This document shows positions 1,339-49,011 of a stretch of 64,000 nucleotides of DNA, one piece after another. How positions within the stretch are numbered: position 1 is the first letter of the stretch; each line of letters begins with the position of its first letter. A program made the position numbers and the translations under genes. The DNA comes from Halanaerobium sp. MA284_MarDTE_T2 (lineage in GTDB: Bacteria > Bacillota > Halanaerobiia > Halanaerobiales > Halanaerobiaceae), in contig NZ_QPJE01000004.1 in NCBI RefSeq assembly GCF_003337245.1, positions 62,001 to 126,000 of the forward strand, written 5' to 3'. The notes below the pieces were generated by a model, which worked only from the letters and a program-made list of their open reading frames with translations, was not told where the DNA came from and searched no databases.

Positions 1339-2313
1339 TTGACAGAAACAAACAGGGTATTTCGTATAATTAAGATGATTATGTTGCTAAGACAGCCATA
1401 TGGCAGATGGGATGTTAATAAAATTACAGAGACTTTTGATATTTCTGCCCGTACTTTTCATAGAGATAAGAAAATTATGGAAGAACTCGGCATTCCAATA
1501 TATTATGACAGACATTTAAAAGAGTATAAAATACTGGAGACATTTAGATTAGAAAGTCCCAATTTAAACAAAGAAGAAACCGAAGCTATTATGCTGGCAG
1601 CAAAAGAATATAAAAATAAGAATTTTCCTATGAAAAAGGAGCTGGAGTCTGCATTAGCAAAAGTTATTAATTCACTACCTGAATATATAAAAGGGAGTCT
1701 GGGTACTTACATAAATAGTTATGAGATAATTTCTGATCCATTTGTTGATTTAAAAGAACACAGGCAAAAATTTAAGCTGATAAAAAAATCTATTGAAAAA
1801 CAGGAGAGCATAATAATCGATTATTATGCTCTGGGAAAAGATGAAAAAAGTACAAGAAAGATAAATCCATATAATATATTTTTTAATAATGGTGCACCAT
1901 ATTTAATTGCTTTTTGTAATTTGCGTGGTGAGATCAGAACTTTTAGAATTGACAGAATAAAAAACATAAAATTTACTGATGAAAGTTATACTATTCCCAA
2001 TGATTATTCTCTGGATGAACAGCTGCACAATTCCTGGGGTGTTGAACAAGGAGAGGAAGAGCTGGATGTTGAAGTAAAATTTACAGGCAGAGCCGCCCGC
2101 TTTGTTCCGGAATACCAGTGGACTGATAATCAGATAATAAAGAAGTTAGCCGATAATGAAATAATATTTTCTGTAAGAACTACCAGCAGAGAAGAAATAA
2201 AAAAATGGATTTTAAGTTATGGTGCTGAAGCCGAGGTCTTAAAACCTGAAGAATTAAAACAGGAAGTTGCAGAGGTAGCAGAAAAAATGTGTAAAATTTA
2301 TGAAAAAAACTGA
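1339..2313 (+). CDS. WYL-domain transcriptional regulator with N-terminal HTH
   Basis: A 324-residue regulator of the DeoR/YafY-like WYL family. Residues about 1-65 form a winged HTH (ARTFHRDKKIMEELGIPIYY is the usual recognition-helix region). Residues about 135-215 hold the WYL domain (SIIIDYYALGKDEKSTRKIN, PYLIAFCNLRGEIRTFRIDR). The C-terminal part (about 235-320) is the WYL C-terminal extension with a REEIKKWILSYG motif. The start is a TTG at 1339 behind a GGAGAGG ribosome-binding site. WYL domains bind nucleic-acid-type or nucleotide ligands and often regulate phage-defence and CRISPR loci. It lies 278 bp upstream of cas3 in the same direction, so control of the cas operon is plausible but is inference. 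Confidence 0.85.
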   Translation: MTETNRVFRIIKMIMLLRQPYGRWDVNKITETFDISARTFHRDKKIMEELGIPIYYDRHLKEYKILETFRLESPNLNKEETEAIMLAAKEYKNKNFPMKKELESALAKVINSLPEYIKGSLGTYINSYEIISDPFVDLKEHRQKFKLIKKSIEKQESIIIDYYALGKDEKSTRKINPYNIFFNNGAPYLIAFCNLRGEIRTFRIDRIKNIKFTDESYTIPNDYSLDEQLHNSWGVEQGEEELDVEVKFTGRAARFVPEYQWTDNQIIKKLADNEIIFSVRTTSREEIKKWILSYGAEAEVLKPEELKQEVAEVAEKMCKIYEKN

Positions 2314-2414: not shown

Positions 2415-2500
2415 TTTCCTAGTAAACGGAATAATCTCTAAATATAAATAATAATGTTTCAGTCTCCTAGTTAATAGAGTAATTAATATTATATCAAATT
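2415..2500 (-). ncRNA. Candidate crRNA-like regulatory RNA (CreR/CreA type) upstream of cas3
   Basis: The minus strand of the WYL-cas3 intergenic region carries two degenerate copies of the array repeat. Positions 2456-2492 match the repeat at about 26 of 37 bases, with a 15-base exact block (TTTCAGTCTCCTAGT on +) covering most of the 8-nt handle and the 3' stem arm. Positions 2415-2430 match at 14 of 16 bases around the stem-loop. Between them is an AT-rich spacer-like segment, 25 nt to the conserved core of the second copy but only 11 nt if that copy were full length. Counting from the handle, spacer positions 6-17 (TATTTATATTTA) are identical, in register, to minus-strand positions 2572-2561 of the cas promoter, which follow a TCC at 2580-2578 that could serve as PAM. 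Positions 2, 4 and 5 mismatch. Expression and function are inferred. Confidence 0.55.
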
Positions 2501-2507
2501 AATTTAT

Positions 2508-2537
2508 ATATTAAAAGTTTTACAAAATATTTGACAA
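2508..2537 (-). promoter_or_regulatory. Divergent promoter for the crRNA-like RNA
   Basis: On the minus strand TTGTCA (2537-2532) is followed after 18 nt by TAATAT (2513-2508). Initiation would fall near 2500, about 8 nt before the first repeat-like copy. The -35 overlaps the -35 of the cas promoter on the other strand, because TTGACAA and TTGTCAA are reverse complements. The two promoters could therefore compete for RNA polymerase. The surrounding DNA is AT-rich, so the -10 is only a moderate match. Confidence 0.4.
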
Positions 2538-2559
2538 TTTGTTTTGGTTTTATTATAAT
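2531..2559 (+). promoter_or_regulatory. Perfect-consensus sigma-70-type promoter of the cas operon
   Basis: TTGACA (2531-2536), 17 nt, TATAAT (2554-2559): both hexamers match consensus exactly with ideal spacing. Initiation is expected near 2566, about 25 nt before the cas3 start. A promoter this strong normally needs a repressor, which fits the nearby WYL gene and the crRNA-like RNA whose candidate target (2577-2553) covers the -10 and start site. Confidence 0.8.
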
Positions 2560-2591
2560 ATAAATATAAATATAATTGGATTAATAAAGAG

Positions 2592-4970
2592 GTGATTAAA
2601 ATAAACGATTTAATTCATGAGAATTATTTAAAAACCAATAGCGGAAAAACAACTACTAACTTTTCTCCATTTAAATATCAAAAGGAAGTAGCAAAGACAA
2701 TATTAGGTGGTCAAAATGTAATATTACAGGCTCCAACCGGAGCTGGTAAGACTCTTGCTTCTATATTACCATTTATTATAGCAAATGAAGAAAATTATGA
2801 CTTTCCTAAGAAATTAATATATTCTACTCCTAGAAGAACATTAGTTAATAGCCTGTTCAACGATATAAGTAAAGAAATTAATAAAGGTTGTTTTAATAGA
2901 GATTATAATGTCACTGTACAAACTGGAGAACATAAAGAAGATAGATATTTTACTGGTGATATAGTTTTTACAACCTTTGATCAAAGTTTATCTTCAGCTT
3001 TAAGTATGCCAATTTCTTTATCTAATAGATTGGCTAATATAAATGTCGCAGCAGTTTTATCTTCATATTTAATATTTGATGAATTTCATCTATTTGATTT
3101 AGAGGGATCATATACAACTACAGTTTTATTATTAGAAAAATTAAAAGAAATTGTACCTTTCTGTATTATGACAGCTACTCTTTCTAATAAAAGAACTAAT
3201 GATCTTGCAGATAAATTAGATGCTAAAGTTATTCGAGCCGATCAGAGAGAATATTTGGAAGATATAGTTACTCAAAAAGGAAAAGAACGTAGAATTAATG
3301 TAAATAATAGAACGATGAATGCTGAAGAAATATTTGATTTACATACCCAAATAAATGGTCCATCAAAAAAATCTATAGTAATGTGTAATAGAGTAGATAA
3401 TGCACAGAAAATATATTCAGATTTAAAATCTATAATTAATAAAAAAGATTACAATATTAATTTGATTTTAATTCATTCTAGGTTTTTAAATAATGATAGA
3501 AGTAATAAAGAAAAAAAAATAAAAAAATTATTTAATAAAAAAAATAGTAATAGTAATGTAATATTAGTTTCTACCCAAGTTATAGAAGTTGGAATTGATA
3601 TTACCTCGGATATTATGCATACAGAAATTTCTTCTATAGATTCATTTTTACAGCGAATTGGACGCTGTGCAAGATACCAAAATGAAAAAGGGGAAATATT
3701 TGTTTATGATGTTTTAAACGATGGTAAGAAAAAATATCTTCCTTATGATGAATTGATAACTTTAAAAACCTTTAAGCATTTAGAAGATATTAATGGACAA
3801 ATTTTGACATCTGAAAAATCTCAAGAAATTATTGATCAAATCTACAGTAAAGAAACAAATATTGATTTGCAGATTAAGGAAAAGACTGATTTTACACCTA
3901 ATAGTTTTATTATAGAGAGCTGGAGTTTTCCAGATAAAAAGAGATATAAAGATTTAATTAGAGATGTAGTAGGATGCAATATCATAATAAAAAAATGGAT
4001 AGTTGATGGTGATTCTCCATATAATTATCAAAGTTTAAGTATTTCCCCCTGGACTCTTAAATCAAAGATAAAAGGAATTGAAGAAGAGACTTCTCAGTGG
4101 TCAGTTAAACAGGTGATTGAGCAGGAAGATGACAGTGATTTTAAATATACTTATAAAAAAATAGATTCAGAAAAAATATATGCTAATGAAACTTATTTAT
4201 TAAATCCAGAATTTTTTGCTTATGATAAAGAAAATGGGTTGCTTTTTAATCAAAGTGGTATAGAATTTAAAAGACTGCCCAAAAATCAGCAGGAAGATGA
4301 GTATAATAATCAAAAATATAAAGAGGAGAGCTATCTGCAGCACATTAATAGTATTAAATCTGAAGTGGATAAATATTTAGATGGAATTAAATATTTAACT
4401 AATTATTTAAAGAAACAGTTTAATTTAAATGATAGAGAATTTAAAGATATTATTGAATTAACTATTTGGGCGCATGATTTAGGAAAACTGCAAAAATCAT
4501 GGCAGGAGGCACATAAAAAAAATGAATTTAAATATATAGCTCATGGAGAAAGAATTTCTAGGCCTCCTGGTCATGCTGGAGAAAGCTTTTGGATAGCTTT
4601 ATGTATAATAGAAGATTTTGTGTTTGATTATATTAAAAAAAATGAAGTTATTATAGATATTATTGGAAAGTCAATTGTCTCTCATCACAGTATTAATTTA
4701 AATAAAATTAGTTCATATAGTATTTCTGAAGAAGTTATAAATTATTTTACAAAGATAAATCACAATTTCTTTAGTAATGACGAACTTGGAAAGTTTATGA
4801 ACCAGAAATTAGATAAATTATTTCTTACACTAAAACCTGGTGAAGAAATCACTGATTTAGCTGACGAAATAAGAATTACGTCTACAGATGAATATTTATT
4901 TTATTTTTTATTAATTAGAATTTTAAGATTATCTGATCAGGAAGCAACAAAAAATTTAAATAAGATCTAA
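2592..4970 (+). CDS. cas3: Cas3: helicase followed by C-terminal HD nuclease
   Basis: A 792-residue Cas3 that degrades DNA after recruitment by Cascade. The superfamily 2 helicase comes first: Walker A APTGAGKT (K near residue 53), Walker B DEFH at 163-166, TATLS near 195, and motif VI QRIGRCARY near 356. The HD nuclease is at the C-terminus, with H628-D629 in WAHDLGKLQ and a downstream SHHS. This is the reverse of the common HD-helicase order. The assigned start is GTG at 2592, but it overlaps the GAGGTG ribosome-binding sequence, so initiation a few codons later at a non-ATG codon (such as ATA 2601) is possible. It is the first gene of an operon that continues to 12236; cas8 starts 15 bp after its stop. 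Confidence 0.92.
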   Translation: MIKINDLIHENYLKTNSGKTTTNFSPFKYQKEVAKTILGGQNVILQAPTGAGKTLASILPFIIANEENYDFPKKLIYSTPRRTLVNSLFNDISKEINKGCFNRDYNVTVQTGEHKEDRYFTGDIVFTTFDQSLSSALSMPISLSNRLANINVAAVLSSYLIFDEFHLFDLEGSYTTTVLLLEKLKEIVPFCIMTATLSNKRTNDLADKLDAKVIRADQREYLEDIVTQKGKERRINVNNRTMNAEEIFDLHTQINGPSKKSIVMCNRVDNAQKIYSDLKSIINKKDYNINLILIHSRFLNNDRSNKEKKIKKLFNKKNSNSNVILVSTQVIEVGIDITSDIMHTEISSIDSFLQRIGRCARYQNEKGEIFVYDVLNDGKKKYLPYDELITLKTFKHLEDINGQILTSEKSQEIIDQIYSKETNIDLQIKEKTDFTPNSFIIESWSFPDKKRYKDLIRDVVGCNIIIKKWIVDGDSPYNYQSLSISPWTLKSKIKGIEEETSQWSVKQVIEQEDDSDFKYTYKKIDSEKIYANETYLLNPEFFAYDKENGLLFNQSGIEFKRLPKNQQEDEYNNQKYKEESYLQHINSIKSEVDKYLDGIKYLTNYLKKQFNLNDREFKDIIELTIWAHDLGKLQKSWQEAHKKNEFKYIAHGERISRPPGHAGESFWIALCIIEDFVFDYIKKNEVIIDIIGKSIVSHHSINLNKISSYSISEEVINYFTKINHNFFSNDELGKFMNQKLDKLFLTLKPGEEITDLADEIRITSTDEYLFYFLLIRILRLSDQEATKNLNKI

Positions 4971-4985
4971 GAAAGGAGTGAATTA

Positions 4986-6857
4986 ATGCGAAAGTTTTTT
5001 ATTGAAAAAGTTGAAGGAGACTATAGTGACGTTTTATTGGCAAGGGGGGTTGCAGAATTAGTAAAAGAAGTTTTTAATCAAAATAATTTTGAAGGAGTTG
5101 ATATTTGGATAAATAATAATGGTGCTTTTTTTGTAATAGAAAGTGAAAAAGAAATAAAAAAAGAGTATTTTAATCAATTGAATTTCAATACACTCTATCC
5201 ATTAATTTATTATGATAAGATGGATGATAAACCAAATTATACAGAAAATATTATTGATTTTACTCAAGAAAAAAAATATAAAGATTGGTCGCCTAATGAA
5301 AGGAAATCTTCATTAATAAGACAGGCAACTGGGATTCCTCTTAGTAATAAGATAATGAATGATATTTATAAAATTAATGATTATTTTTCAGAATTGGTAT
5401 ATTTGATTTTAGAACATTATTCGAATCCTACTGAGAAATTCAATGACCTAGTTGCGAAAATCGATGATTTATTTATTAATATTCAATTAAATAATTTTAA
5501 AAGTATAGTTAAGAATAATCTTAAAGATAATGAATTATCTAGGATAGAGTCAGATTTAGATGAATTATTTAATGAGTTCGAAAATTTTCATTGGAGCAAG
5601 AGAAATAAAGTTAAAGATTTGATAAAAGACAAATTAAATGAAAGTGCAAATAATTTGGAAGAAACAAAAACTATAAAAAAATTATATAATGAAGCTAAAA
5701 TTGATTTTATAACAACTCATAATGCTTTAAGTAGTTTACTTCCAAAAAGAGTTAAAGGTTTAAATAATGATGATATTTCAGCTTCTTCAAGTATTTCACC
5801 AAAAAATACTTCAGAAAATTGGTTGCGTTTATATTTGGTTTTAATTGGTTTTTATAAATCATTAATCTTACAGGGAATGCAGTCCGGGAATAGATTATAC
5901 TCAGTTATTTCTCCAAATCAAGTTTCTATTAGCAGGTTTGATAATATATATGGTAGTGTAGTGAATGGTTTTCATCCTGGTAATACCTTAGAAAAACAAA
6001 ATATTCTTTTCCTCAGTGATTTTATAATTAACCTTTTAGATAAATTAGAAGATTTTAATCAAAGTAAAAGAAGGAAAAGAAGAAGAACAGTACTAAAAAA
6101 TTATATTGAAGGAATTAAAAATGTTTATTTAGTTGATATGGGGCAAAACCATATTATAAAAAATATTTATGATTTAAATGTTCCGAATTGGATTATTTTA
6201 GATGAAGAAAAAGATAAAGTTGGTTTTAAAAAAGTTTTTCAAGAGTTTAAAGAATTGATTACACCAATTGATGATAAAAATGAAGATGTTAAATTATTTC
6301 AGGAGTTATATAATTTTTTAACAACTGAAGAAGTTGGTTCTTTATTAAGTTATTATTATCAGCATGCTTTACTTGCAATGCAGAGGCTGGGGAATAATGA
6401 GAGTGCAAAAATGTATACAAAAAGGAGTGTTAAATTTATTATGAATAAATTAGATAATGCTGGTGGGGGCGGATATTCTAAAATTCTAGAAAATGAGGGT
6501 TTTCAAAATTTTGCTAAGGCAATTAGAAACAGTACTTTAATTCCTATTTATTTAGGTAAAAAGAAAAAAATTAAATTTGGTTTGCTGCAGGATATTAGAA
6601 GAGCTTCTTTAAATAAAGACACTTTAATTACTAAACTTTCAACTTTTATGGCAGATTATAATAATGAGAATGGACTTGATAATTTTCATAATCAAAATCC
6701 TATGAGATCAAATTTAACAACTCAAGATTTTGAAGATATTGTTGCTTTAATTGATGACCATGATTCTAAAATCATTGGTAATATGCTGCTGGCTTATGGT
6801 TTTGGTAAAGATGAAAAAGTAGAGAAAGTAAAAGGAGATGAGGATAATAATGAGTAA
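4986..6857 (+). CDS. cas8: Cas8 family large subunit of the Cascade complex (subtype I-A-like)
   Basis: A 623-residue protein between cas3 and cas7, the normal place for the Cas8 large subunit that recognises the PAM and stabilises the crRNA-DNA complex. Sequence families of Cas8 diverge strongly. Here the call rests on position, size and the I-A-type neighbours rather than on a recognised motif. The N-terminal part (about 1-110) is alpha/beta; the middle is helical with a basic patch (SKRRKRRRT near 365). The last 180 residues are helical and resemble a small-subunit-like bundle. No cysteine zinc motif is visible, unlike Cst1-type Cas8. The stop codon overlaps the cas7 start by 8 bp, indicating translational coupling. 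Confidence 0.8.
   Translation: MRKFFIEKVEGDYSDVLLARGVAELVKEVFNQNNFEGVDIWINNNGAFFVIESEKEIKKEYFNQLNFNTLYPLIYYDKMDDKPNYTENIIDFTQEKKYKDWSPNERKSSLIRQATGIPLSNKIMNDIYKINDYFSELVYLILEHYSNPTEKFNDLVAKIDDLFINIQLNNFKSIVKNNLKDNELSRIESDLDELFNEFENFHWSKRNKVKDLIKDKLNESANNLEETKTIKKLYNEAKIDFITTHNALSSLLPKRVKGLNNDDISASSSISPKNTSENWLRLYLVLIGFYKSLILQGMQSGNRLYSVISPNQVSISRFDNIYGSVVNGFHPGNTLEKQNILFLSDFIINLLDKLEDFNQSKRRKRRRTVLKNYIEGIKNVYLVDMGQNHIIKNIYDLNVPNWIILDEEKDKVGFKKVFQEFKELITPIDDKNEDVKLFQELYNFLTTEEVGSLLSYYYQHALLAMQRLGNNESAKMYTKRSVKFIMNKLDNAGGGGYSKILENEGFQNFAKAIRNSTLIPIYLGKKKKIKFGLLQDIRRASLNKDTLITKLSTFMADYNNENGLDNFHNQNPMRSNLTTQDFEDIVALIDDHDSKIIGNMLLAYGFGKDEKVEKVKGDEDNNE
6441..6857 (+). CDS. Possible internal Cas11 small subunit translated from within cas8
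   Basis: An ATG at 6441 is in frame with cas8 (residue 486) and is preceded by an AAAGGAGTG sequence at 6421-6429 that looks like a ribosome-binding site, though the spacing (about 11 nt) is long. The product would be 138 residues, largely helical, ending with ALIDDHDSKIIGNMLLAYGF and an acidic tail. Known subtype I-A systems encode a small subunit (Csa5) of about this size, and none is present here. Internal translation of Cas11 from cas8 is established for some I-B, I-C and I-D systems. Its use here is inference. Confidence 0.4.
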   Translation: MNKLDNAGGGGYSKILENEGFQNFAKAIRNSTLIPIYLGKKKKIKFGLLQDIRRASLNKDTLITKLSTFMADYNNENGLDNFHNQNPMRSNLTTQDFEDIVALIDDHDSKIIGNMLLAYGFGKDEKVEKVKGDEDNNE

Positions 6858-7806
6858 AAGAGTATATTCAATTTCTATTAATGGTAAAGTTGGACTTAAT
6901 CTTCATGATTTAAATAATGAAAAGTCTGAGGGTAATCAGTTAACAACAAGAAATGTTACAATAACAAATGGAGCCGGTAAACTTGCAACAGTAAATGCTG
7001 TATCTGGAGATATGTTAAAACATATCCAGGCTGCTCATTTATTTAAAATAGCAGAAAATAACGATGATTTACCTTTATGCAGTGGATGCCAAAAATTTGA
7101 TGCTAATAGAATCACAATTGACGATAATTTTGATGAATTTACCAAAAATGATAACACTAAATCTGAGATAGTCGATGAAATGCTTAAAATGTGTGCTGTT
7201 GATGATTTAGAAGGGATATTAATTACAAATAACAATAAAAATATTGGTCGAGATTCGACAGTTGAATTTGGCTGGTTGGTTGCTGTACCAGAAGAGTTTA
7301 ATTCTGAGAACTTATTTCATGTAAAATATTCTGATTTAGAAAAAACTGAAGGCACAGGTAAAAATGAAGGACAGAATATTTTTTATCGTCCTTTAAATTC
7401 CGGCCAATATGCTGTAGTAAATAATCTTGAAATATCAAGAATAGCTTATAATGATATTTCTAAGGATTATGTATTAGATGATGATGCGATTAAAAATAGA
7501 TATCAGGCTTTACTTAAATCAATTATGATGACCTATTATTCTCCAGAAGGTGCAATGAGAAATACTCAGGCGCCTCATATGACCAGCTTTGAAGGAGTAG
7601 TAAGTATCAGTTATAGTTCAGTTCCTGCTCCAACAATTAGTGCTCTTAATCCTGATTATAAAAATGAAATATCTTCTATATCTAATACATTAAACGAAAT
7701 CGGAGAAGAAGTTGAATTAAAAGAATTTAAGAGTATGAGCGAATTTACTAATATAATTAAAGATCTTATTAATGATACTGTTCCTTATGGTGTAAAAAAT
7801 CAATAA
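6850..7806 (+). CDS. cas7: Cas7 backbone subunit, DevR/Csa2 family
   Basis: The backbone RAMP protein that polymerises along the crRNA. The N-terminus (KRVYSISINGKVGLNLHDLN, then EGNQLTTRNVTI and AVSGDMLKHIQAAHLFKIA) is characteristic of the DevR/Csa2 family (archaeal-type I-A Cas7), with the conserved SGxxLKH segment near residue 50. A C-x2-C-like pair (LCSGCQKF near 74) follows. I place the start at the ATG at 6850, which overlaps the cas8 stop and sits behind a GAGG site. A longer version starting at 6838 would have its start codon against the ribosome-binding site. Length is 318 residues, normal for the family. Confidence 0.9.
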   Translation: MSKRVYSISINGKVGLNLHDLNNEKSEGNQLTTRNVTITNGAGKLATVNAVSGDMLKHIQAAHLFKIAENNDDLPLCSGCQKFDANRITIDDNFDEFTKNDNTKSEIVDEMLKMCAVDDLEGILITNNNKNIGRDSTVEFGWLVAVPEEFNSENLFHVKYSDLEKTEGTGKNEGQNIFYRPLNSGQYAVVNNLEISRIAYNDISKDYVLDDDAIKNRYQALLKSIMMTYYSPEGAMRNTQAPHMTSFEGVVSISYSSVPAPTISALNPDYKNEISSISNTLNEIGEEVELKEFKSMSEFTNIIKDLINDTVPYGVKNQ

Positions 7807-7818
7807 GGGGGAGTTATA

Positions 7819-8496
7819 ATGTGGTTAGAAGTTGAATATATACCAACATCGTTATTTTCGTTCAAAGACATAAAAGCAACTAATACTGCTGCTACTTCAT
7901 TATTATTTCCAACTCCCTTTGGAGTTAAGATGGCTTTAATATCAGAAGCAATTAAAGAATTTAATCTGGAAAAAGGTAGAGAAGTTTTTGAACTAATTAA
8001 GGGAAGAGAAATAAAATATAATTTACCAGCAGAAGCAGTTGTAAATAAAACTTTCGGTAGAATCAATGATTTAAGAAATAAGATTGGACGTTCTAAACCT
8101 GCATACAGAGAATATGTATATTTTAATGGAAGCTTAAAACTGGCGATAAATATAGACGATATAAATCAAGAAAAAATTGAATTATTAAAGTCGTTATTTT
8201 TGAGAATTAATTATTTTGGAAAAAAAGGATCTTTTATGCAGTTTAAAGAGTCAAAAATAATTGATAATCTAAATGACAATCATTTAAAATTAATGAGTAA
8301 TGGCGAGATTGATTTCAAATTTAAATCAATTATTCAACAAACTGAAGATATTCCTATAGACGCTAGTTTTGAAGCTATAAACATTTATAATGAAAATGAA
8401 AGTTTATCTAGAGATAATAATGAAAGATTATATGTGGTTAATATAGAAAAAACTTTATCAGGAGATGGTTATCAATATTATAAAATTTCAAATTAA
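7819..8496 (+). CDS. cas5: Cas5 subunit of Cascade
   Basis: A 225-residue RAMP-fold protein directly after cas7 and before cas6, where Cas5, which caps the 5' handle of the crRNA, is expected. The N-terminus WLEVEYIPTSLFSFKDIKAT followed by LFPTPFGVKMALI fits the Cas5a/Cas5t group. The start ATG at 7819 is preceded by AAGGGGGAG. The gap to cas7 is 12 bp, consistent with one transcript. Confidence 0.82.
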   Translation: MWLEVEYIPTSLFSFKDIKATNTAATSLLFPTPFGVKMALISEAIKEFNLEKGREVFELIKGREIKYNLPAEAVVNKTFGRINDLRNKIGRSKPAYREYVYFNGSLKLAINIDDINQEKIELLKSLFLRINYFGKKGSFMQFKESKIIDNLNDNHLKLMSNGEIDFKFKSIIQQTEDIPIDASFEAINIYNENESLSRDNNERLYVVNIEKTLSGDGYQYYKISN

Positions 8497-8508
8497 AGAG
8501 GGATAATG

Positions 8509-9462
8509 ATGGATTTAGCAATAACAACTTTAAAATTTAATTTAATGGCGTTAGAAGATTTATATCTGCCAGAACACCCTGGTTCAACATTTCGGGGTGC
8601 TTTTGGTAGATCTTTAAGAGAAATTTCCTGTAGTTTTGATGATAAAAAATGTAAAGGATGTAATTTGAAAGATAATTGTCCCTATTCTTTGTTTTTTAAT
8701 CCATTTCTAACAGAAAAAGATAAGCTTAAGACCTCTAAAAGATTTAGAAACAAATTGCGTCCTTTTATTTTCAATACAGATAATAATTATAAAAAACAGT
8801 ACTCATCCGGAGAGGAATTAACATTTAAAATTAGAATTTTTGGTTATATGAAGCAGTTTATCCCTTATGTAATTGAAAGTTGGAAAAAATTACAGCAGAT
8901 TGGTCTGGGTTCTGGAAGGAGTAATTTTTTATTAAAAAATATTTGGTCAGAAAATGATTTAAAAGGAAAAAAAACAAAAATCTTTGACTATAAGGATACT
9001 GAGATTAAAAACATTAATAACACAATTTATATTGATGACATAAAGAAAGAAGAATCATATTTTAATTATAAAGTTACTCTGCTGTTTAAAACTCCAACAT
9101 TAATTAAAGTTAATGGGAAATATATCAAGAATAATTTAGAATTTTCTTTATTAATGCGCACTTTATTTAGACGTTTATCAACAATGGCTGCTTTTTATGG
9201 AGAGGAAATGAGTATTTATTTTAATGACTATCTAAATAAAGCTGAAAAAATAAAATTGCTTTATAAAGATTTGGAGTGGAACGACTGGTATCGCTATTCT
9301 GATAAACAGAATAAAAAAATTGAAATGCAGGGATTCACAGGGGCAGTAAGTTATGAAGGAGAAATAGCAGATTTTTTACCATATTTAATCTATGCTCAAT
9401 ATTTAAATTTAGGGAAAAATACTGTTTTTGGTCAGGGTAACTTTGAACTTTTAAATTATTAA
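8509..9462 (+). CDS. cas6: Cas6 crRNA-processing endoribonuclease (Cys-rich N-terminal type)
   Basis: About 317 residues. The N-terminus has the PGSTFRGAFGRSLRE segment and a cysteine cluster (CKGCNLKDNCPYSLFFNPF, near residues 47-66) of the CRISPR_Cas6 family associated with I-A, I-D and III systems. The C-terminus has the glycine-rich GFTGAVSYEGEI and NLGKNTVFGQGNFEL signature typical of Cas6 RAMP loops. It would cut each repeat 8 nt from its 3' end to leave the ACUGAAAG handle. The start is one of two adjacent ATGs; 8509 is 6 nt behind AGAGGG, whereas 8506 is only 3 nt away. cas1 begins 19 bp downstream. Confidence 0.85.
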   Translation: MDLAITTLKFNLMALEDLYLPEHPGSTFRGAFGRSLREISCSFDDKKCKGCNLKDNCPYSLFFNPFLTEKDKLKTSKRFRNKLRPFIFNTDNNYKKQYSSGEELTFKIRIFGYMKQFIPYVIESWKKLQQIGLGSGRSNFLLKNIWSENDLKGKKTKIFDYKDTEIKNINNTIYIDDIKKEESYFNYKVTLLFKTPTLIKVNGKYIKNNLEFSLLMRTLFRRLSTMAAFYGEEMSIYFNDYLNKAEKIKLLYKDLEWNDWYRYSDKQNKKIEMQGFTGAVSYEGEIADFLPYLIYAQYLNLGKNTVFGQGNFELLNY

Positions 9463-9481
9463 TAAAGATTGGAGGGCTTAA

Positions 9482-10492
9482 ATGAAGGAAATCTATTTAA
9501 ATAATTATGGACAGTTTTTGGGTAAAAAAAGTGAAAGATTGGTAGTTAAAGAAAAGGGTAAGATTAAGAGAGAAGAACCTTTTTTTAAAATTAGTCGAGT
9601 GATAATTACTTCTAAAGGTATAAGCTTATCAACTGATGCCATTGAAGAATGCATGAAAAGAGGAATTCAGATTGATTTTTTGAATTTTAAAAATGAACCA
9701 TATGCAAAATTAAGCTCTCCTTTTTTACAGGGAACTGTTAAAACTAGAAGGGCTCAACTGACTGCTTTTGATGATCAAAGAGGTGTTTCTCTAGCCAAAG
9801 CATTTGTTTTAGGGAAAGTAAGTAATCAGGTTAATCTGTTAAAATATATGAGTAAATATAGAAAAAAGAGAAATCCAGAAATCTATAATTATATGTGTAA
9901 GCGAATTAAAGAAATTGAAAAAATGATAAATGAAATATCAGTTATTGAAGATGAAAAAATTGATTTTATTAGACAGGATATAATGACTTTAGAGGCACAT
10001 GCAGCTAAAAAATATTGGCAGACAGTGGCAAAAATATTACCTGAAGAGGTTGGATTTACAGGTAGAGAGACCAGAGGTGCAGTTGATCTTGTAAATTCAA
10101 TGCTTAATTATGGTTATGCTATTCTTTATTCACATGTTCAGGGTGCAGTTATCTTAGCTGGTTTGGATCCATTTGCTGGTTTTATGCATGTAGATCGCTC
10201 TGGTAGGGCTTCTTTAGTTTTAGATTTTGTAGAAGAATTTAGACAACAGACAGTAGATAAAACAATTTTTGCAATGATTAATCGCGGTACTAATTTGGAA
10301 GTAAAAGAAAATAGACTAACTAAAAAAACCAAAAATAAATTTAGAAAAAAATTAAAGAAAAAATTTGATAGTTATCATCAGTATGAAGGCAAAAAAGAAA
10401 AAATCAAAAATATAATTCAGAGACAAGCCAGACATATTGCAACTCATCTTAGAGGTGAAAGAGAATATGAACCTTTTGTAGGGAGCTGGTAG
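9482..10492 (+). CDS. cas1: Cas1 integrase
   Basis: A 336-residue Cas1, the catalytic subunit of the spacer integration complex. The metal ligands are visible: E171 in MTLEAHAAKKYW, H236 in FMHVDRSGR and E251 in LVLDFVEEFRQ. The TGRETRGAVDLVNSMLNYGY and VQGAVILAGLDPFAGF segments are classic Cas1. The ATG at 9482 has a TTGGAGG ribosome-binding site. It is separated from cas2 by 2 bp, so the two partners are co-translated. Length and all key residues are intact, so adaptation should be functional. Confidence 0.97.
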   Translation: MKEIYLNNYGQFLGKKSERLVVKEKGKIKREEPFFKISRVIITSKGISLSTDAIEECMKRGIQIDFLNFKNEPYAKLSSPFLQGTVKTRRAQLTAFDDQRGVSLAKAFVLGKVSNQVNLLKYMSKYRKKRNPEIYNYMCKRIKEIEKMINEISVIEDEKIDFIRQDIMTLEAHAAKKYWQTVAKILPEEVGFTGRETRGAVDLVNSMLNYGYAILYSHVQGAVILAGLDPFAGFMHVDRSGRASLVLDFVEEFRQQTVDKTIFAMINRGTNLEVKENRLTKKTKNKFRKKLKKKFDSYHQYEGKKEKIKNIIQRQARHIATHLRGEREYEPFVGSW

Positions 10493-10494
10493 AA

Positions 10495-10740
10495 ATGCAT
10501 ACTCTGGTTATTTATGATATTACAGAAGACAAAACAAGAAATAAAATTGCTGAAGTTTGTAAAGATTATGGTCTCAAAAGAATTCAGTGGAGTGCATTTA
10601 TGGGAAAATTAAGTATCAACAGAAGAGAAGAATTACATTTGAAATTAGTTCAAACTTTAAAAGATAAATCTGGTGATATACAGCTCTATCCAATTTGTTC
10701 TAAAGACATGAATTTAAAAAAGGAAATAAAAAATGAATAA
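10495..10740 (+). CDS. cas2: Cas2 adaptation protein
   Basis: An 81-residue Cas2, at the short end of normal. The first strand HTLVIYDITEDKTRNKIAEV contains the conserved aspartate (D8), and LKRIQWSAFMGKLSINRRE matches the ferredoxin-like Cas2 core. Cas2 bridges two Cas1 dimers. The cas4 start lies within the last 8 bp of cas2, giving tight translational coupling. Confidence 0.95.
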   Translation: MHTLVIYDITEDKTRNKIAEVCKDYGLKRIQWSAFMGKLSINRREELHLKLVQTLKDKSGDIQLYPICSKDMNLKKEIKNE

Positions 10741-11314
10741 ACTGATACTAAATGTGACTGATATAAAACAGTATATTTATTGTCCGCGCATAATTTATTA
10801 TACTTACTGTCAGCCTGTAAGTAAGAAAAGAACATTTAAAATGGAATTTGGTAGCAAACAGCATGATATAGTTGATCAATTGGAAAAAAGAAGAACTTTA
10901 AAGAGGTATAATTTGGATAAGGGAAATAAAATATTTAAACACAAGGTATTTTCTGAAAAGTATTCTTTAAGTGGTAAATTAGATATGCTGGTAAAACAGG
11001 AAAGAGAAATAGTTCCTATTGAAATGAAGTATACTAATTCTCGACCAGGTTTAAATCATAAATATCAGCTGGCTGGTTACATGCTTTTGATCGAAGATAA
11101 ATTTGAGTTACCAGTTAGAAAAGGGATTATTCATATTATACCGACTAAAGACAGTTATTTTTATAAAAATAATGATCAGTTAAGAAAAAAAGTTAAGCAA
11201 TTAATATTTGAAATAAAAGAATTAATAGAAAAAGAACATTATCCTGATAAGGCTTCAGGATGGAAAAAGTGTAAAGAATGTGAGTTCAAAAATTATTGTG
11301 GAGATGTGGGGTGA
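10733..11314 (+). CDS. cas4: Cas4 Fe-S nuclease
   Basis: A 193-residue RecB-like nuclease. An N-terminal cysteine lies in YIYCPRIIYY, and a C-terminal cluster KCKECEFKNYCGD supplies three more iron-sulfur ligands. The catalytic core is visible as SGKLDMLV (motif II Asp), PIEMKY (motif III E-x-K) and a Q in YQLAGYMLL. Cas4 trims prespacers and selects them for PAM and length. It overlaps cas2 by 8 bp. The Csa1-type paralogue follows 4 bp downstream. Confidence 0.93.
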   Translation: MNKLILNVTDIKQYIYCPRIIYYTYCQPVSKKRTFKMEFGSKQHDIVDQLEKRRTLKRYNLDKGNKIFKHKVFSEKYSLSGKLDMLVKQEREIVPIEMKYTNSRPGLNHKYQLAGYMLLIEDKFELPVRKGIIHIIPTKDSYFYKNNDQLRKKVKQLIFEIKELIEKEHYPDKASGWKKCKECEFKNYCGDVG

Positions 11315-11318
11315 AATA

Positions 11319-12236
11319 ATGTATTTTCTTAATGAAGAAGAAAAGCTATATCTACATAAATCATTAATTCCAGAATCTAGAGATATGTATATTGATTATA
11401 ATCTTAGAGGCTGGAATTGGAATCAACCGCCTTTAGAACCGATTTATGATATTAAATTGGGAGTCGCAGAAACTGCAAATAATTACTGCAGCAGCAATAG
11501 AGACTTATATCTTCAAAAAGTCATGAAAAAGAAATTCAAAGCTAATGATAAAATGCTGGAAGGATCATTATTACACAAGACACTGATGAAATTTATTACT
11601 TCTGCAAAAAAAGAATTATATATCAATGGAATTAAAGAAGTAGAATACGATAATTTGTTTAATTTGGATAGTAATATTATTAGTGAATTAATCGGCTCAT
11701 ATTATTTTAATAACACTTCAAAAGAAAAATTGATCAAAAAAATAGAAAAAATATGGGGATTTGAATCTCAAAGAGTCAAATTTAGGATGCAGGAAGTTTT
11801 ATCTTCCCAACCATATATTGATGTTGATGCTCTAATTCATCAAGTTATTCCAATAGTAGTAGAGCAAAAATTGAACGGATCTTTTATTGGACTAAGTTCA
11901 TATTTAAGTACTGATGCCATAAACTTTTCAGAGCCCATGATAGTTGACACTAAATTTGGAAAAGAAAAAGAGTTTTACAAACTCAGTGTTACTGGTTATG
12001 CTCTTGTTATGGAATCATTATTCTCTTTTCCGGTAAATTTAGGATGTCTTGTTTATCCAGGATTCAAGAACAAAAGAATATTAATTAAAAGAGATCTATT
12101 TATTATAACTGATGAATTGCGCCAAAAATTTATTGAGCAGCGCGACGAAAAAATGAGAATGATTTATGAAGATATTGATCCTGGTATTGCCAATAATTGT
12201 TATAAAATATGTCCTTTTTATGATGAGTGTAATTAA
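11319..12236 (+). CDS. csa1: Csa1-type Cas4 family protein (subtype I-A adaptation)
   Basis: A 305-residue protein recognisable as Csa1 by its N-terminus (MYFLNEEEKLYLHKSL, then LRGWNWNQPPLEPIYDIKLG and ETANNYCSSNRDLYLQKVM) and by a C-terminal cysteine pair (CYKICPFYDEC). The middle has a nuclease-like MIVDTKFGKEKEFYKLSVTGYAL stretch (D-x-K core). Csa1 is a Cas4 relative found with subtype I-A adaptation modules. The start is placed at the ATG at 11319, 4 bp after the cas4 stop; an upstream in-frame ATG at 11280 would overlap cas4 without a ribosome-binding site. It is the last gene before the array leader. Confidence 0.85.
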   Translation: MYFLNEEEKLYLHKSLIPESRDMYIDYNLRGWNWNQPPLEPIYDIKLGVAETANNYCSSNRDLYLQKVMKKKFKANDKMLEGSLLHKTLMKFITSAKKELYINGIKEVEYDNLFNLDSNIISELIGSYYFNNTSKEKLIKKIEKIWGFESQRVKFRMQEVLSSQPYIDVDALIHQVIPIVVEQKLNGSFIGLSSYLSTDAINFSEPMIVDTKFGKEKEFYKLSVTGYALVMESLFSFPVNLGCLVYPGFKNKRILIKRDLFIITDELRQKFIEQRDEKMRMIYEDIDPGIANNCYKICPFYDECN

Positions 12237-12320
12237 ATGAAGGAATTGTTGTCTATTTAAAGAATAAATCAAGTAAGATAATATAATTAGAATTAATTTT
12301 CGCAAAAGGCAGGGGTGTTG

Positions 12321-12410
12321 ATGCAGAAAATAATTTTTCGAGATAAGTCAATGGAATTAAAAGGATTGTCATACTGGAATACCTGTTATATAAGGGTTTG
12401 TTCTTTTTGA
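12321..12410 (+). CDS. Possible 29-residue leader small ORF
   Basis: An ATG at 12321 sits 5 nt behind an AGGGG ribosome-binding site (12311-12315) and opens a 29-codon frame ending TGA at 12410, eight bases before the first repeat. The peptide starts MQKIIFRDKSMELKGLSYWN and has two cysteines. It is unlike any family I know. The good ribosome-binding site is the only support. The ORF overlaps the likely leader promoter, so it could also be a chance frame. Confidence 0.3.
   Translation: MQKIIFRDKSMELKGLSYWNTCYIRVCSF
12366..12394 (+). promoter_or_regulatory. Probable promoter of the CRISPR array
   Basis: TTGTCA (12366-12371), 17 nt, TATAAG (12389-12394); each hexamer matches consensus at five of six positions. 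Transcription would begin near 12401, about 18 nt before the first repeat and in the direction that gives crRNAs with an ACUGAAAG 5' handle. Confidence 0.6.
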
Positions 12411-12418
12411 AAATTGCT

Positions 12419-15400
12419 CTAACATTTACCTCTCCGCTTACTAGGAGACTGAAAGCAGCCAGAGCCGAGTGAAGTACCTTCTCCTAATGTTGCTAACATT
12501 TACCTCTCCGCTTACTAGGAGACTGAAAGGCAGCACAAGCCAGAAGATTATTATTAGAAATAAAAACTAACATTTACCTCTCCGCTTACTAGGAGACTGA
12601 AAGTGCATCTTATTTTGCGCCTGTGTCATCCCAGATGTAACTAACATTTACCTCTCCGCTTACTAGGAGACTGAAAGGATGGATTAGAGGATAAGTGTAT
12701 AGAGTTGGCTAAAGCTAACATTTACCTCTCCGCTTACTAGGAGACTGAAAGCCTTCGCTTCTTGACATCTGTTGTAATAATCTTTGACCTAACATTTACC
12801 TCTCCGCTTACTAGGAGACTGAAAGGTTTTTAATTAATTCATTTTTTATTTGTTCTATTTCCTAACATTTACCTCTCCGCTTACTAGGAGACTGAAAGTT
12901 TCTACAGCCTGAACGAACCCGTTCTCAATCATTTTTCTAACATTTACCTCTCCGCTTACTAGGAGACTGAAAGGCTGATTGAGCCACAATCTGTGCTTCT
13001 GTGGCTGACCTAACATTTACCTCTCCGCTTACTAGGAGACTGAAAGGATACATTGAGTTTTGGCACAATGGATGCAGGATTCTTCGGCTAACATTTACCT
13101 CTCCGCTTACTAGGAGACTGAAAGGCGCCCTCTATTGGTGGCAAACCTGTATCTTTGCTCTAACATTTACCTCTCCGCTTACTAGGAGACTGAAAGCTTC
13201 CTGTATTCATCATACCTTCTGTATCCTTCGTACTAACATTTACCTCTCCGCTTACTAGGAGACTGAAAGTCTGATTAAGTTGTGCCATATCTGACTTTTG
13301 GTCTTTCTAACATTTACCTCTCCGCTTACTAGGAGACTGAAAGTTACTTCACCTTCTTAAATAAAAATCCTACTTTATCGTCTAACATTTACCTCTCCGC
13401 TTACTAGGAGACTGAAAGGTGTCATAATAACCTGTCTGTCTGGCTTACCACTTGCCTAACATTTACCTCTCCGCTTACTAGGAGACTGAAAGTCTTATTA
13501 GCATCTTCTACACCTCTCAAACGCGTAATCTAACATTTACCTCTCCGCTTACTAGGAGACTGAAAGTCTACCCACAATGTAAGCCCATGGCTACAATTTT
13601 GACTAACATTTACCTCTCCGCTTACTAGGAGACTGAAAGAACTCATAGCCGTATCTGCCAAATGCTTCAGCATTGCCTCTAACATTTACCTCTCCGCTTA
13701 CTAGGAGACTGAAAGATTATACACTTCCTTCATTTTGCTGTCAGTAAAATCTAACATTTACCTCTCCGCTTACTAGGAGACTGAAAGATATTAATATTAT
13801 CAAAGATATTAACCATTACTTTTACTAACATTTACCTCTCCGCTTACTAGGAGACTGAAAGTTCAACTCACACTCTACCATATAGTGGGCAAGTGTACCT
13901 AACATTTACCTCTCCGCTTACTAGGAGACTGAAAGGATGACCAGCTGGAAGAGGGAGAGGCTCCACTCTCAGCTAACATTTACCTCTCCGCTTACTAGGA
14001 GACTGAAAGTTCATAGACATTACCAGCACAGTCAACCATCCCATTAACTAACATTTACCTCTCCGCTTACTAGGAGACTGAAAGCTAATATATCCCCTTC
14101 ATATATTTCTTTGCCATTTTTCTAACATTTACCTCTCCGCTTACTAGGAGACTGAAAGGCTGGCTGCGTGCCTGATCTGCTCGACCTTTGGCTTTACTAA
14201 CATTTACCTCTCCGCTTACTAGGAGACTGAAAGATGAAAAGATTATTCAGTCAAAATACAACGAAGATGACTAACATTTACCTCTCCGCTTACTAGGAGA
14301 CTGAAAGTTAACTGTAACTGCTGCATCTTGCCTTGTTGCTGTTACTAACATTTACCTCTCCGCTTACTAGGAGACTGAAAGATTAATCAGCTATAATGAC
14401 AGTGATAGAGGTTCGATCTAACATTTACCTCTCCGCTTACTAGGAGACTGAAAGAGTAAGTGCGAAAATTAGCATAGTGAGTTTCTTCAACTAACATTTA
14501 CCTCTCCGCTTACTAGGAGACTGAAAGTTCCATCAAAAGAGAATTAATTTTTATCTATATTCTCTAACATTTACCTCTCCGCTTACTAGGAGACTGAAAG
14601 GTTTAAGAGTCTGGTTATCTACTCATTTAACCTATGACTAACATTTACCTCTCCGCTTACTAGGAGACTGAAAGGCAAAAATATTTGTAGTTAGTATGGG
14701 CGATCTCTTCTAACATTTACCTCTCCGCTTACTAGGAGACTGAAAGTGTAAATCACTCTCACCTAATGCTGAACCTCTCCATCTAACATTTACCTCTCCG
14801 CTTACTAGGAGACTGAAAGCCCTTTCTCTTTTCATATATCAAATTCAACCTTTAACTAACATTTACCTCTCCGCTTACTAGGAGACTGAAAGTTGTTCTT
14901 TTCCACCTTCCATTTCCGTTACTAAAGTCTAACATTTACCTCTCCGCTTACTAGGAGACTGAAAGGATGTAGTTATGAATACTAAGTGGACTCAGAAGGG
15001 CCTAACATTTACCTCTCCGCTTACTAGGAGACTGAAAGAAGATCAGGAATGTGAGGTTAGTTGATTAATGAATCTAACATTTACCTCTCCGCTTACTAGG
15101 AGACTGAAAGTTTCTGGTGATCCACTCAGTGACGCCTGTAGTATTTCTAACATTTACCTCTCCGCTTACTAGGAGACTGAAAGGGAGAGAATATCCGCTT
15201 TGACGGTGACTTGTACCAGGTACTAACATTTACCTCTCCGCTTACTAGGAGACTGAAAGTCAGGTAAATATTTGAGTCTACGCGGTATGTTAAGCACTAA
15301 CATTTACCTCTCCGCTTACTAGGAGACTGAAAGGCTTAACAGCTTGTTTCCGCAACTTACTTGCTGATAACTAACATTTACCTCTCCGCTTACTAGGAGA

Positions 15401-18400
15401 CTGAAAGGTAAGGGTAATCCTCGTGAGCTGAATGGATTGTGTCCTAACATTTACCTCTCCGCTTACTAGGAGACTGAAAGCACATTTCTGTTCCTGTTTC
15501 TATTAATGTTGTAGACTAACATTTACCTCTCCGCTTACTAGGAGACTGAAAGTTCATATTGTCTTACAGTAGCTTCAGAAGCCATTTCTCTAACATTTAC
15601 CTCTCCGCTTACTAGGAGACTGAAAGTCTGTATGCTCTATTATCGTTTCCAGCCCCATGTCTACTAACATTTACCTCTCCCTTACTAGGAGACTGAAAGC
15701 TTAATAAAACACCGCCTTCAGTTTCATTTGGTTCGCTAACATTTACCTCTCCGCTTACTAGGAGACTGAAAGCATCAGAATTAGATAATAGTAATACAAA
15801 ATATAATTTCTAACATTTACCTCTCCGCTTACTAGGAGACTGAAAGTCAATAGCAAACATTCCATTGAGTGCATACTTTCTCTAACATTTACCTCTCCGC
15901 TTACTAGGAGACTGAAAGGCAAAGTATTTATCTATCACCTTTTCCATATCATCAACCTAACATTTACCTCTCCGCTTACTAGGAGACTGAAAGCGATGTA
16001 CCAATCTAATATTTTGAGCATTGTTTCTTTCTAACATTTACCTCTCCGCTTACTAGGAGACTGAAAGGAGTCCTTTGCTAGCAGCTTTCTTAAACTTGCT
16101 GCCGGCTAACATTTACCTCTCCGCTTACTAGGAGACTGAAAGTTTTAGCAAGGTGGTAAATTGATAAAAGTAAATCTTTCTAACATTTACCTCTCCGCTT
16201 ACTAGGAGACTGAAAGAAGCTGAATCTAAACTATCCTGCATTTCTTTTACTCTAACATTTACCTCTCCGCTTACTAGGAGACTGAAAGTCATTTTCTATG
16301 CCTTCAAATTGTGGGTATGGTTCTACTAACATTTACCTCTCCGCTTACTAGGAGACTGAAAGTCAAATTTAGATTGCCTTTTATCTAATCGTGATTTGAC
16401 TAACATTTACCTCTCCGCTTACTAGGAGACTGAAAGAATCCCAGCGTTCAGACGGTGCGATAGCTCAACACGCCTAACATTTACCTCTCCGCTTACTAGG
16501 AGACTGAAAGCTCCTTTTTTTTAGCTTTTTTTGCCCTCTATACTCTATCTAACATTTACCTCTCCGCTTACTAGGAGACTGAAAGAGAAAGATATGTATT
16601 AGAAGCAGAAGAAATTGTCAGCTAACATTTACCTCTCCGCTTACTAGGAGACTGAAAGACTCATTTGGGCTTTCCAGAATATACTGGACCACTGGGATTA
16701 CTTGTTCTAACATTTACCTCTCCGCTTACTAGGAGACTGAAAGACTCATTTGGGCTACTGTCCAGCTTGCGAAATCATTCTAACATTTACCTCTCCGCTT
16801 ACTAGGAGACTGAAAGAAGTTAACCTGCACTTTACCGCCACCGTTGTTATTAACTAACATTTACCTCTCCGCTTACTAGGAGACTGAAAGAGCTGCTCTT
16901 TCATCACAGATAAACTGCTGATTGTCTAACATTTACCTCTCCGCTTACTAGGAGACTGAAAGATAAACTGGTATTTATCATAAATACACATGTTGCTGAC
17001 TAACATTTACCTCTCCGCTTACTAGGAGACTGAAAGCTGCCCGGTAACGGTGGCAAACCTACTGACTTGCTATCTAACATTTACCTCTCCGCTTACTAGG
17101 AGACTGAAAGTTAATAAAACTTTTCTGTGAACTATCAGCCTTAGCTAACATTTACCTCTCCGCTTACTAGGAGACTGAAAGTCTTCTGTTAGCTCATCAT
17201 TGTGTTTAAAGTATAAATCTAACATTTACCTCTCCGCTTACTAGGAGACTGAAAGCTAAAATAAAATCACCTTCAATCATAAACATTGGTAACTAACATT
17301 TACCTCTCCGCTTACTAGGAGACTGAAAGAATATATATCGCTGATACCACACTCCTGTATATTCCTAACATTTACCTCTCCGCTTACTAGGAGACTGAAA
17401 GCTAACTACTAATTCAGCACGTTTAGTTAATTCCATCTAACATTTACCTCTCCGCTTACTAGGAGACTGAAAGGCTATTCATACTAGAGATTTTGCTGAC
17501 TCTCTACTTTACCTAACATTTACCTCTCCGCTTACTAGGAGACTGAAAGTTCTGACATTGATGCCATCCGCTTATCTACCTTAGCTAACATTTACCTCTC
17601 CGCTTACTAGGAGACTGAAAGACACTGGTATGCAGTGAAGCAAGAGCTTCATCTTCCTAACATTTACCTCTCCGCTTACTAGGAGACTGAAAGTCGGAGA
17701 ATTCCGACACAGAGTCTGGTGATGAATTTCTAACATTTACCTCTCCGCTTACTAGGAGACTGAAAGGCTGACTTGCTATCATCAGCCTGATATTTAGCTG
17801 TCCTAACATTTACCTCTCCGCTTACTAGGAGACTGAAAGGTGCCTTCAAGATCCCTCCCTGCATTTTCAGAAAACCCTAACATTTACCTCTCCGCTTACT
17901 AGGAGACTGAAAGGTACCTGCTCATCTGTCCTCATATCGTCTGCTCTATCTACCTAACATTTACCTCTCCGCTTACTAGGAGACTGAAAGCCATTAGTAT
18001 CATTGGGGTTGTATCAGTTGTTGCGTCTAACATTTACCTCTCCGCTTACTAGGAGACTGAAAGGCTAGTAATAATAATTGTCTAGCTCTCGGTGCTAATT
18101 CTAACATTTACCTCTCCGCTTACTAGGAGACTGAAAGCTCTTTTTTCTAGCCCGGACCAGACTTTTATGATTGCTAACATTTACCTCTCCGCTTACTAGG
18201 AGACTGAAAGGAAACCTCAAGGCAACACTTTCAGCTCTTTTGTCGAATCTAACATTTACCTCTCCGCTTACTAGGAGACTGAAAGGCTTATTGTGCTACC
18301 TCCATCTTCAACAGCCTGTGATCTAACATTTACCTCTCCGCTTACTAGGAGACTGAAAGCCTCTATATTATAATAACATCTTATCCAACTCATTGCCTAA

Positions 18401-19021
18401 CATTTACCTCTCCGCTTACTAGGAGACTGAAAGATAACAAGGTTGCCGAGAGTGAGTGGGATATGGAGATCTAACATTTACCTCTCCGCTTACTAGGAGA
18501 CTGAAAGAGCAAGTATGCTGTCTAATCCGTGCTCTATAACTTCCTAACATTTACCTCTCCGCTTACTAGGAGACTGAAAGGCTGTACATTAATTGCTTCT
18601 CTTGCCATTAATTAATCTAACATTTACCTCTCCGCTTACTAGGAGACTGAAAGTCTCTGGCTAAACTTTCTTTTTGCACAAAATAACCAGTTGCTAACAT
18701 TTACCTCTCCGCTTACTAGGAGACTGAAAGCTTTATCGTCATTTTGGTTACCCCACTTAGATTTGCTAACATTTACCTCTCCGCTTACTAGGAGACTGAA
18801 AGTTCATAACCTTCATTGTTTATTTTAGCTTTTATTGCTAACATTTACCTCTCCGCTTACTAGGAGACTGAAAGTCATATCTTCACCAACATCTTCTTCA
18901 TATAATTTTTCTAACATTTACCTCTCCGCTTACTAGGAGACTGAAAGATATATACAGCAGAGTAATGAGCGAATAGAAAACTTTCTAACATTTACCTCTC
19001 CGCTTACTAGGAGACTGAAAG
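12419..19021 (+). CRISPR. CRISPR array: 90 full repeats of 37 bp, 89 spacers
   Basis: Repeats begin CTAACATTTA and end GACTGAAAG. Counting start positions by eye gives 90 full copies (first 12419-12455, last 18985-19021). Within each repeat TCTCC and GGAGA form a 5-bp stem around an 8-nt loop, and the last 8 nt (ACTGAAAG) would be the crRNA handle. Spacers are 34-41 nt except one of 48 nt (16659-16706). All repeats look identical except the one at 15664-15699, which lacks the loop G. Leader-proximal position next to cas genes and decayed copies at the other end give the + orientation. The near-perfect repeats and complete adaptation genes suggest an active locus. Confidence 0.99.
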
Positions 19022-19061
19022 ATTTACTAGGAGACTGAAAGATTTACTAGGAGACTGAAAG
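19022..19061 (+). repeat. Two tandem 20-bp truncated repeat copies at the array end
   Basis: Immediately after the last full repeat, ATTTACTAGGAGACTGAAAG occurs twice in tandem (19022-19041 and 19042-19061). The last 18 bases of each copy equal the 3' half of the CRISPR repeat, and no spacer lies between them. This marks the trailer end, and looks like slippage or recombination within the terminal repeat. Confidence 0.9.
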
Positions 19062-19156
19062 ATGGGCCTCTGCTGATAATCTCAACATTTCTGTTATGAG
19101 ACAAGAAATATTTCAGTAAGCAGGATATACTTTTCACCAGTAAATATTTAAAAGAA

Positions 19157-48830: not shown

Positions 48831-48872
48831 TTTAAATAACTTAAATTTAAATAAATTAAAAATAAATATGAA

Positions 48873-49011
48873 TCATCTAGAGTGGCGGAGGGACTGGCCC
48901 TGTGATGCCCGGCAACCTACCTGAAATATAGGTAAGGTGCTAATTCCTGCATTTCCTTGAATGGAGATGAAAGATGAGGGGTAATTTAATCCTCTCATAG
49001 AGGATTTTTTT
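48873..49011 (+). promoter_or_regulatory. SAM-I (S-box) riboswitch with terminator
   Basis: The aptamer has the S-box core: GTGGCGGAGGGACTGGCCC, GATGCCCGGCAACC and AAGGTGCTAATTCCTGC. Helix P1 is TCATCT (48873-48878) with AGATGA (48972-48977). An intrinsic terminator, AATCCTCT/AGAGGATT plus T-run (48988-49011), follows. ATGAGGGG, which shares the 3' side of P1, can pair with CCTCTCAT as antiterminator. So SAM binding favours termination and methionine shortage switches metNIQ on. Confidence 0.97.

Follow-up and report, generated by a model that had tools for sequence, protein, structure and literature searches.

A degenerate repeat-guide-repeat element antisense to a bacterial type I-A cas operon as a probable CreR-type autorepressor

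In the gap between a WYL-domain regulator gene (1339-2313, plus strand) and the cas operon downstream of it, two degenerate copies of the CRISPR repeat flank a short AT-rich segment on the minus strand, which raises the question whether they are debris of an array or encode an RNA directed at the cas genes themselves. The window, i.e. the whole 64 kb stretch of DNA that was analysed, contains a complete type I-A system, comprising the operon (2592-12236, plus strand; cas3, cas8a, cas7, cas5a, cas6, cas1, cas2, cas4 and a csa1-type cas4), the WYL regulator and a CRISPR array (12419-19063, plus strand) with the 37-nt repeat CTAACATTTACCTCTCCGCTTACTAGGAGACTGAAAG, from which 89 spacers were extracted. 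The presence of Cas8a, Cas5a, Cas7a and Csa1-type Cas4 bears out the earlier I-A assignment. Among other features of the window, an inverted repeat GGACAAATGTCC upstream of the WYL gene (1204-1215) is a possible operator, a TGTTTGCGACATAGTGG-like conserved stretch directly after the WYL stop codon (2314-2345) is also found in the closest relative G001 (L034, ~12310-12365), the array ends (19004-19063) with three exact tandem copies of the 20-base 3' end of the repeat, TTACTAGGAGACTGAAAGAT, and a SAM riboswitch (RF00162, 84 bits) is located at 48870-48980. As to the repeat copies in the gap, the sequence-only reading had proposed a crRNA-like guide aimed at its own cas promoter; this is the best reading of the locus and is upheld by the comparison of related genomes, and we assign a probability of roughly 0.85 to the element being a CreR-type autorepressor of its own cas operon.

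The gap between the WYL gene and cas3 spans 278 bases, and its minus strand holds pseudo-repeat 1, the guide (pseudo-spacer) and pseudo-repeat 2, the whole element covering 2408-2492. Both degenerate repeat copies claimed from the letters alone are indeed present: pseudo-repeat 1 (2456-2492) matches the array repeat at 26/37 positions, with a 15-base exact block ACTAGGAGACTGAAA that includes the handle, and pseudo-repeat 2 (2408-2444) at 19/37 overall, with a good match in its core (2416-2431) only. Pseudo-repeat 1 carries the 5' handle ACTGAAAC (2463-2456; 7/8 matches) and the hairpin arms CTCT (2479-2476) and GGAG (2467-2464) separated by a loop of eight, while in pseudo-repeat 2 the handle is lost (ATTTAATA) and the hairpin core reads TTCC-8-GGAA (2431-2416). 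The array stem CTCC/GGAG is hence altered to CTCT/GGAG in the first copy and to TTCC/GGAA, a compensated form, in the second. The guide ATTATTATTTATATTTAGAGATTA (2432-2455) comprises 24 nt from the end of the handle to the stem of pseudo-repeat 2. With respect to tracking of the array repeats, the copies retain hairpin and handle, though the repeat sequence as a whole is not kept. When all 2.47 Mb of the genome were scanned, the handle block CTAGGAGACTGAAA was found without mismatches outside the array solely at 2457-2470, and a repeat-profile scan revealed no further ectopic repeat copy in the window. The arrangement is that of CreR, with a repeat-like pair around a spacer-like guide, beside the cas genes and outside the array, and the handle and repeat features required for Cas6 processing and Cas5 binding are in place. 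No known RNA family was found at the element in Rfam, and the structural case rests on comparison with relatives, because folding the element as a single sequence gives no better result than folding shuffles of it (z -0.46).

The guide matches the promoter of the cas3 operon, TTGACA-17-TATAAT (2531-2559, plus strand; 12/12 to consensus). The target (2561-2579, minus strand) consists of a CCA PAM (2579-2577) followed by ATTATATTTATATTTA (2576-2561) and lies immediately downstream of the cas3 -10, across the expected start site; the partial complementarity to a cas promoter adjoining a PAM is again as in CreR. The target reads CCA-ATTAT-ATTTATATTTA and the guide ATTAT-T-ATTTATATTTA, and in this register guide positions 1-5 are paired, one extra T stands at 5/6, and 11 pairs follow. 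An extra base of this kind in the guide departs from standard Cascade pairing. In the sequence-only reading, guide positions 6-17 had been aligned without offset to the promoter minus strand beside TCC, with mismatches at seed positions 2, 4 and 5. The identity holds as written and the mismatches are real in the TCC register, but CCA one base over fits better, and with a CCN PAM and the extra guide base the mismatches largely vanish. The TCC register is possible and is ranked second, because TCC is found only here and in one relative (Natroniella sulfidigena, G052), whereas CCN adjoins the target in 6/6 genomes with such a unit. CCN is favoured because of these six targets and because the strain's own array has one protospacer with CCA (in G003, 33/35 matching) and one with CCT (in its own genome, a case that rests on reading spacer 58 as a slipped integration copying 13 nt of the next spacer). 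Both CCT and CCA PAMs are functional with the I-A Cascade of T. tenax (PMC4005679). Weaker protospacer matches (G013 and phage YopX-type matches, G035, G031 and G027) were too diverged for reading a PAM. Spacer 58 itself (16657-16705) is self-targeting, with a perfect match on the strain's own contig C13 (56825-56861) inside a chromosomal gene that resembles prdC as read from the translation, and in its array unit the repeat and 13 nt of the next spacer are duplicated.

How far this match exceeds chance was assessed in several ways. When both strands of the window were searched and the guide itself excluded, the cas3 promoter site ranked first with a score of 15, the next site scoring 13, or 11 when CCN is demanded, and a genome-wide search (2.47 Mb) for the pattern CCN-ATTAT-(0-1)-ATTTATATTTA gave a single hit. 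None of 286 natural spacers and only 3 of 4,680 AT-matched 24-mers scored as well against the cas3 promoter, and shuffling of the promoter region gave p 0.0002 with CCN. Shuffling of the guide alone gave p ~0.02-0.05, a modest value because the guide is nearly pure AT, and the earlier caveat that AT-richness inflates chance matches is well taken. For the same reason the locus is inconclusive when considered alone; the local match, judged as a sequence match, constitutes only fair evidence, and it is the five relatives that make the case strong.

These relatives were found by two routes. A Cas8a search yielded five members of the class with the same operon (64-72% identity), G044 and G052 among them, and array searches yielded further type I loci whose repeats belong to this family but whose effectors differ (G041, G046 and G057). 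An antisense repeat-guide-repeat unit beside the cas operon is present in five genomes of the same class: in two type I-A systems (G044 and G052), where it lies in the WYL-cas3 gap, in one I-B-like system (G041; Cas8b/Cas7b/Cas5b with a Cas3d-like helicase), and in two I-D systems (G046, with Cas10d/Cas7d/Cas5d/Cas11d, and G057, which has a second form of I-D). G001 lacks the element, as do G050, G055 and G056, and in the latter three the WYL gene nearly abuts cas3. Some superficially similar features were rejected. In G056, three plus-strand degenerate repeats just upstream of WYL (L030:12099-12283) have spacers without a match to its promoter, and a 14-base CCN match lies in coding sequence and is taken as coincidence; in the distant I-A system of G167, cas3 is preceded by one antisense copy resembling the repeat (L040:7178-7214), whose guide matches no promoter there; and a repeat-like copy in G044 (L026:6400) is the end of an array.

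Across the six genomes, guide and matching promoter change in concert, as the related-genome comparison proposed earlier would have it, and pairing is conserved although the sequences differ. In a matrix of six guides against six promoters, every guide fits its own promoter best (self scores 12-20, best cross score 12), 0/286 natural spacers reached any of the observed scores, and all six targets adjoin CCA or CCT. The units of G041, G046 and G057 were located by their repeats, and each guide was then found to match its own effector-operon promoter beside CCA. Reading of the sequences places the PAM end of the target 15-18 bases downstream of the -10 in 5/6 cases (the -10 assignment in G044 is ambiguous), and the target of G057 is on the opposite strand. 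The repeats tell a similar story, with 12/12 pseudo-repeat stems pairing, five of them with altered arms, which in the relatives read TCCC/GGGA (first pseudo-repeat of G052 and of G046) and TTTC/GAAA (first pseudo-repeat of G041). Stems were counted by script, because the MAFFT alignment misplaces them when loop lengths differ. The repeat hairpins are preserved through compensatory changes. Pseudo-repeat 1 retains the handle, which is mostly missing from pseudo-repeat 2, and the distance from the handle end to the second stem is 24-39 nt in these units as compared to ~50 in those of the array. Because the six elements share part of their descent, comparisons among them are not fully independent.

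The positions at which pairing is interrupted follow a pattern. Internal mismatches fall at positions 6 and 12 in G041 and in G057 and at 12 in G044 and in G046, i.e. 6/6 at position 6 or 12, while the present guide and that of G052 (target CCT-TGAGT-GTGTATATTATTA, guide TGAGT-T-GTGTATATTATTA) have instead one extra guide base at 5/6, in the same form. If mismatches were spread evenly over positions 2-14, such a coincidence would have a probability of ~1e-5, a post hoc figure that ignores shared descent. Cascade flips out every sixth position, as shown for type I-E, and in the same I-E system a PAM and five seed pairs are enough for Cascade binding, while cutting requires extensive pairing (PMC5904413). 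A tentative idea, which we hold to be somewhat less than an even bet, is that regulatory guides of this class obey a kink code, pairing within five-base segments and losing pairing only at 6 or 12 or adding a base at the first kink. If true, such a code would set apart guides that bind and repress but do not cut, and it would be retained as effector modules are exchanged between I-A, I-B-like and I-D.

In the proposed mechanism, the mini-CRISPR (creR-type) unit would be transcribed from the minus strand, away from cas3, into a crRNA-like RNA, which Cas6 would cleave at pseudo-repeat 1, leaving the handle ACTGAAAC, and which would then be loaded into Cascade; the predicted RNA 5' ends would start with ACTGAAAC in this strain or ACTGAAAT in G052. 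The CCA PAM and ~16 pairs, interrupted at the first Cascade kink, would guide Cascade to the site just past the cas3 -10, where the bound complex would cover the start site and block transcription of the entire cas operon. Cas3 cutting would presumably not be triggered, the pairing being too short and imperfect. Repression should lift once Cascade is taken up by array crRNAs or disabled by anti-CRISPRs, in keeping with reviews of CreR (PMC12737573, PMC13131331), and loss of Cascade would be expected to derepress the operon.

The main rival to autorepression is decay, because the unit of this strain has a weak promoter and no terminator: a creR that was once active, as it still would be in G044 and G052, may now be dying and no longer be made or loaded. 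The present element is the most degenerate one, with the handle of pseudo-repeat 2 lost, and the closest relative G001 lacks it altogether. Its candidate promoter, TTGTCA-18-TAATAT (2508-2537, minus strand), matches consensus at 9/12, and no terminator was found for the element, while strong antisense promoters (TTGACA-18-TATATT, 11/12), located as the weak candidate is here, and terminators behind pseudo-repeat 2 are found in G044 and G052, the latter having the strongest element of all. However, the handle block is intact, the target match is unique, the hairpin changes are pair-preserving in both pseudo-repeats, and the loss of the second handle is usual for CreA, and we regard decay as improbable, though it deserves to be kept in mind. 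The candidate promoter lies back to back with that of cas3, the two -35 boxes sharing the same bases on opposite strands, and plain promoter competition or an antisense RNA could regulate cas by divergent transcription independently of Cascade; this is quite unlikely, as it leaves the handle, the hairpins, the PAM and the kink-position mismatches unexplained. More doubtful still is a stray array fragment, in which the two copies would be old repeats from an array that was inverted or left behind, and the promoter match an AT-rich coincidence: the low complexity of the guide and its modest shuffle value would fit, but not the same place and antisense orientation beside the cas operon in six genomes, nor differing guides that each fit their own promoter beside CCA or CCT, nor the dedicated promoters and terminators of G044 and G052. 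Equally hard to credit is a CreA-type antitoxin restraining a toxin gene rather than cas, for despite the same RNA anatomy the target lies within the cas3 promoter instead of that of a toxin gene, the targets in relatives are effector-operon promoters, and no small ORF was seen between the target and cas3.

With autorepression of cas as the preferred reading, the bacterial I-A case and its I-B-like and I-D relatives suggest a general layer of control that persists when the effector is exchanged. Mismatches at the kink positions could serve as a directly testable sequence signature by which to tell regulatory guides from immune ones, and the six pairs of guide and promoter are at hand as test cases.

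Among known systems, the I-A operon of Sulfolobus is repressed by Csa3b plus Cascade, with the CARF-HTH protein directing repression; as there, the I-A effector would help to repress its own operon, whereas here an RNA guide would direct it, with a WYL regulator nearby. Shmakov et al. (NAR, 2023) reportedly described, in type I and V-A loci, mini-arrays and crRNA-like elements of CRISPR origin, in which two repeats stand by themselves around a spacer with partial complementarity to cas promoters, as in the present element. CreR is known in type I-B, I-E and V-A systems (Liu et al. 2023 Cell Host Microbe 31:1481, via PMC12737573 and PMC13131331). As portrayed in those reviews, CreR shares with the present element a mini-CRISPR beside the cas genes, partial complementarity to a cas promoter and the expected autorepression by the effector, and differs from it in that the host here is a bacterial I-A system (with I-B-like and I-D relatives), the guide is short (24-39 nt between the handle and the following stem) and two I-A members have an extra guide base at the first kink. 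The element would hence be a known kind of regulator, here in a bacterial I-A system, and the loci may already stand in the 2023 surveys of Shmakov and of Liu. CreA of CreTA likewise has two degenerate repeats, with the handle kept in the first and degenerate in the second, and limited seed-side pairing; unlike CreA, which targets a toxin promoter and whose haloarchaeal repeats lack a conserved hairpin, the element described here targets cas and has hairpins conserved by compensation (PMC9458426).
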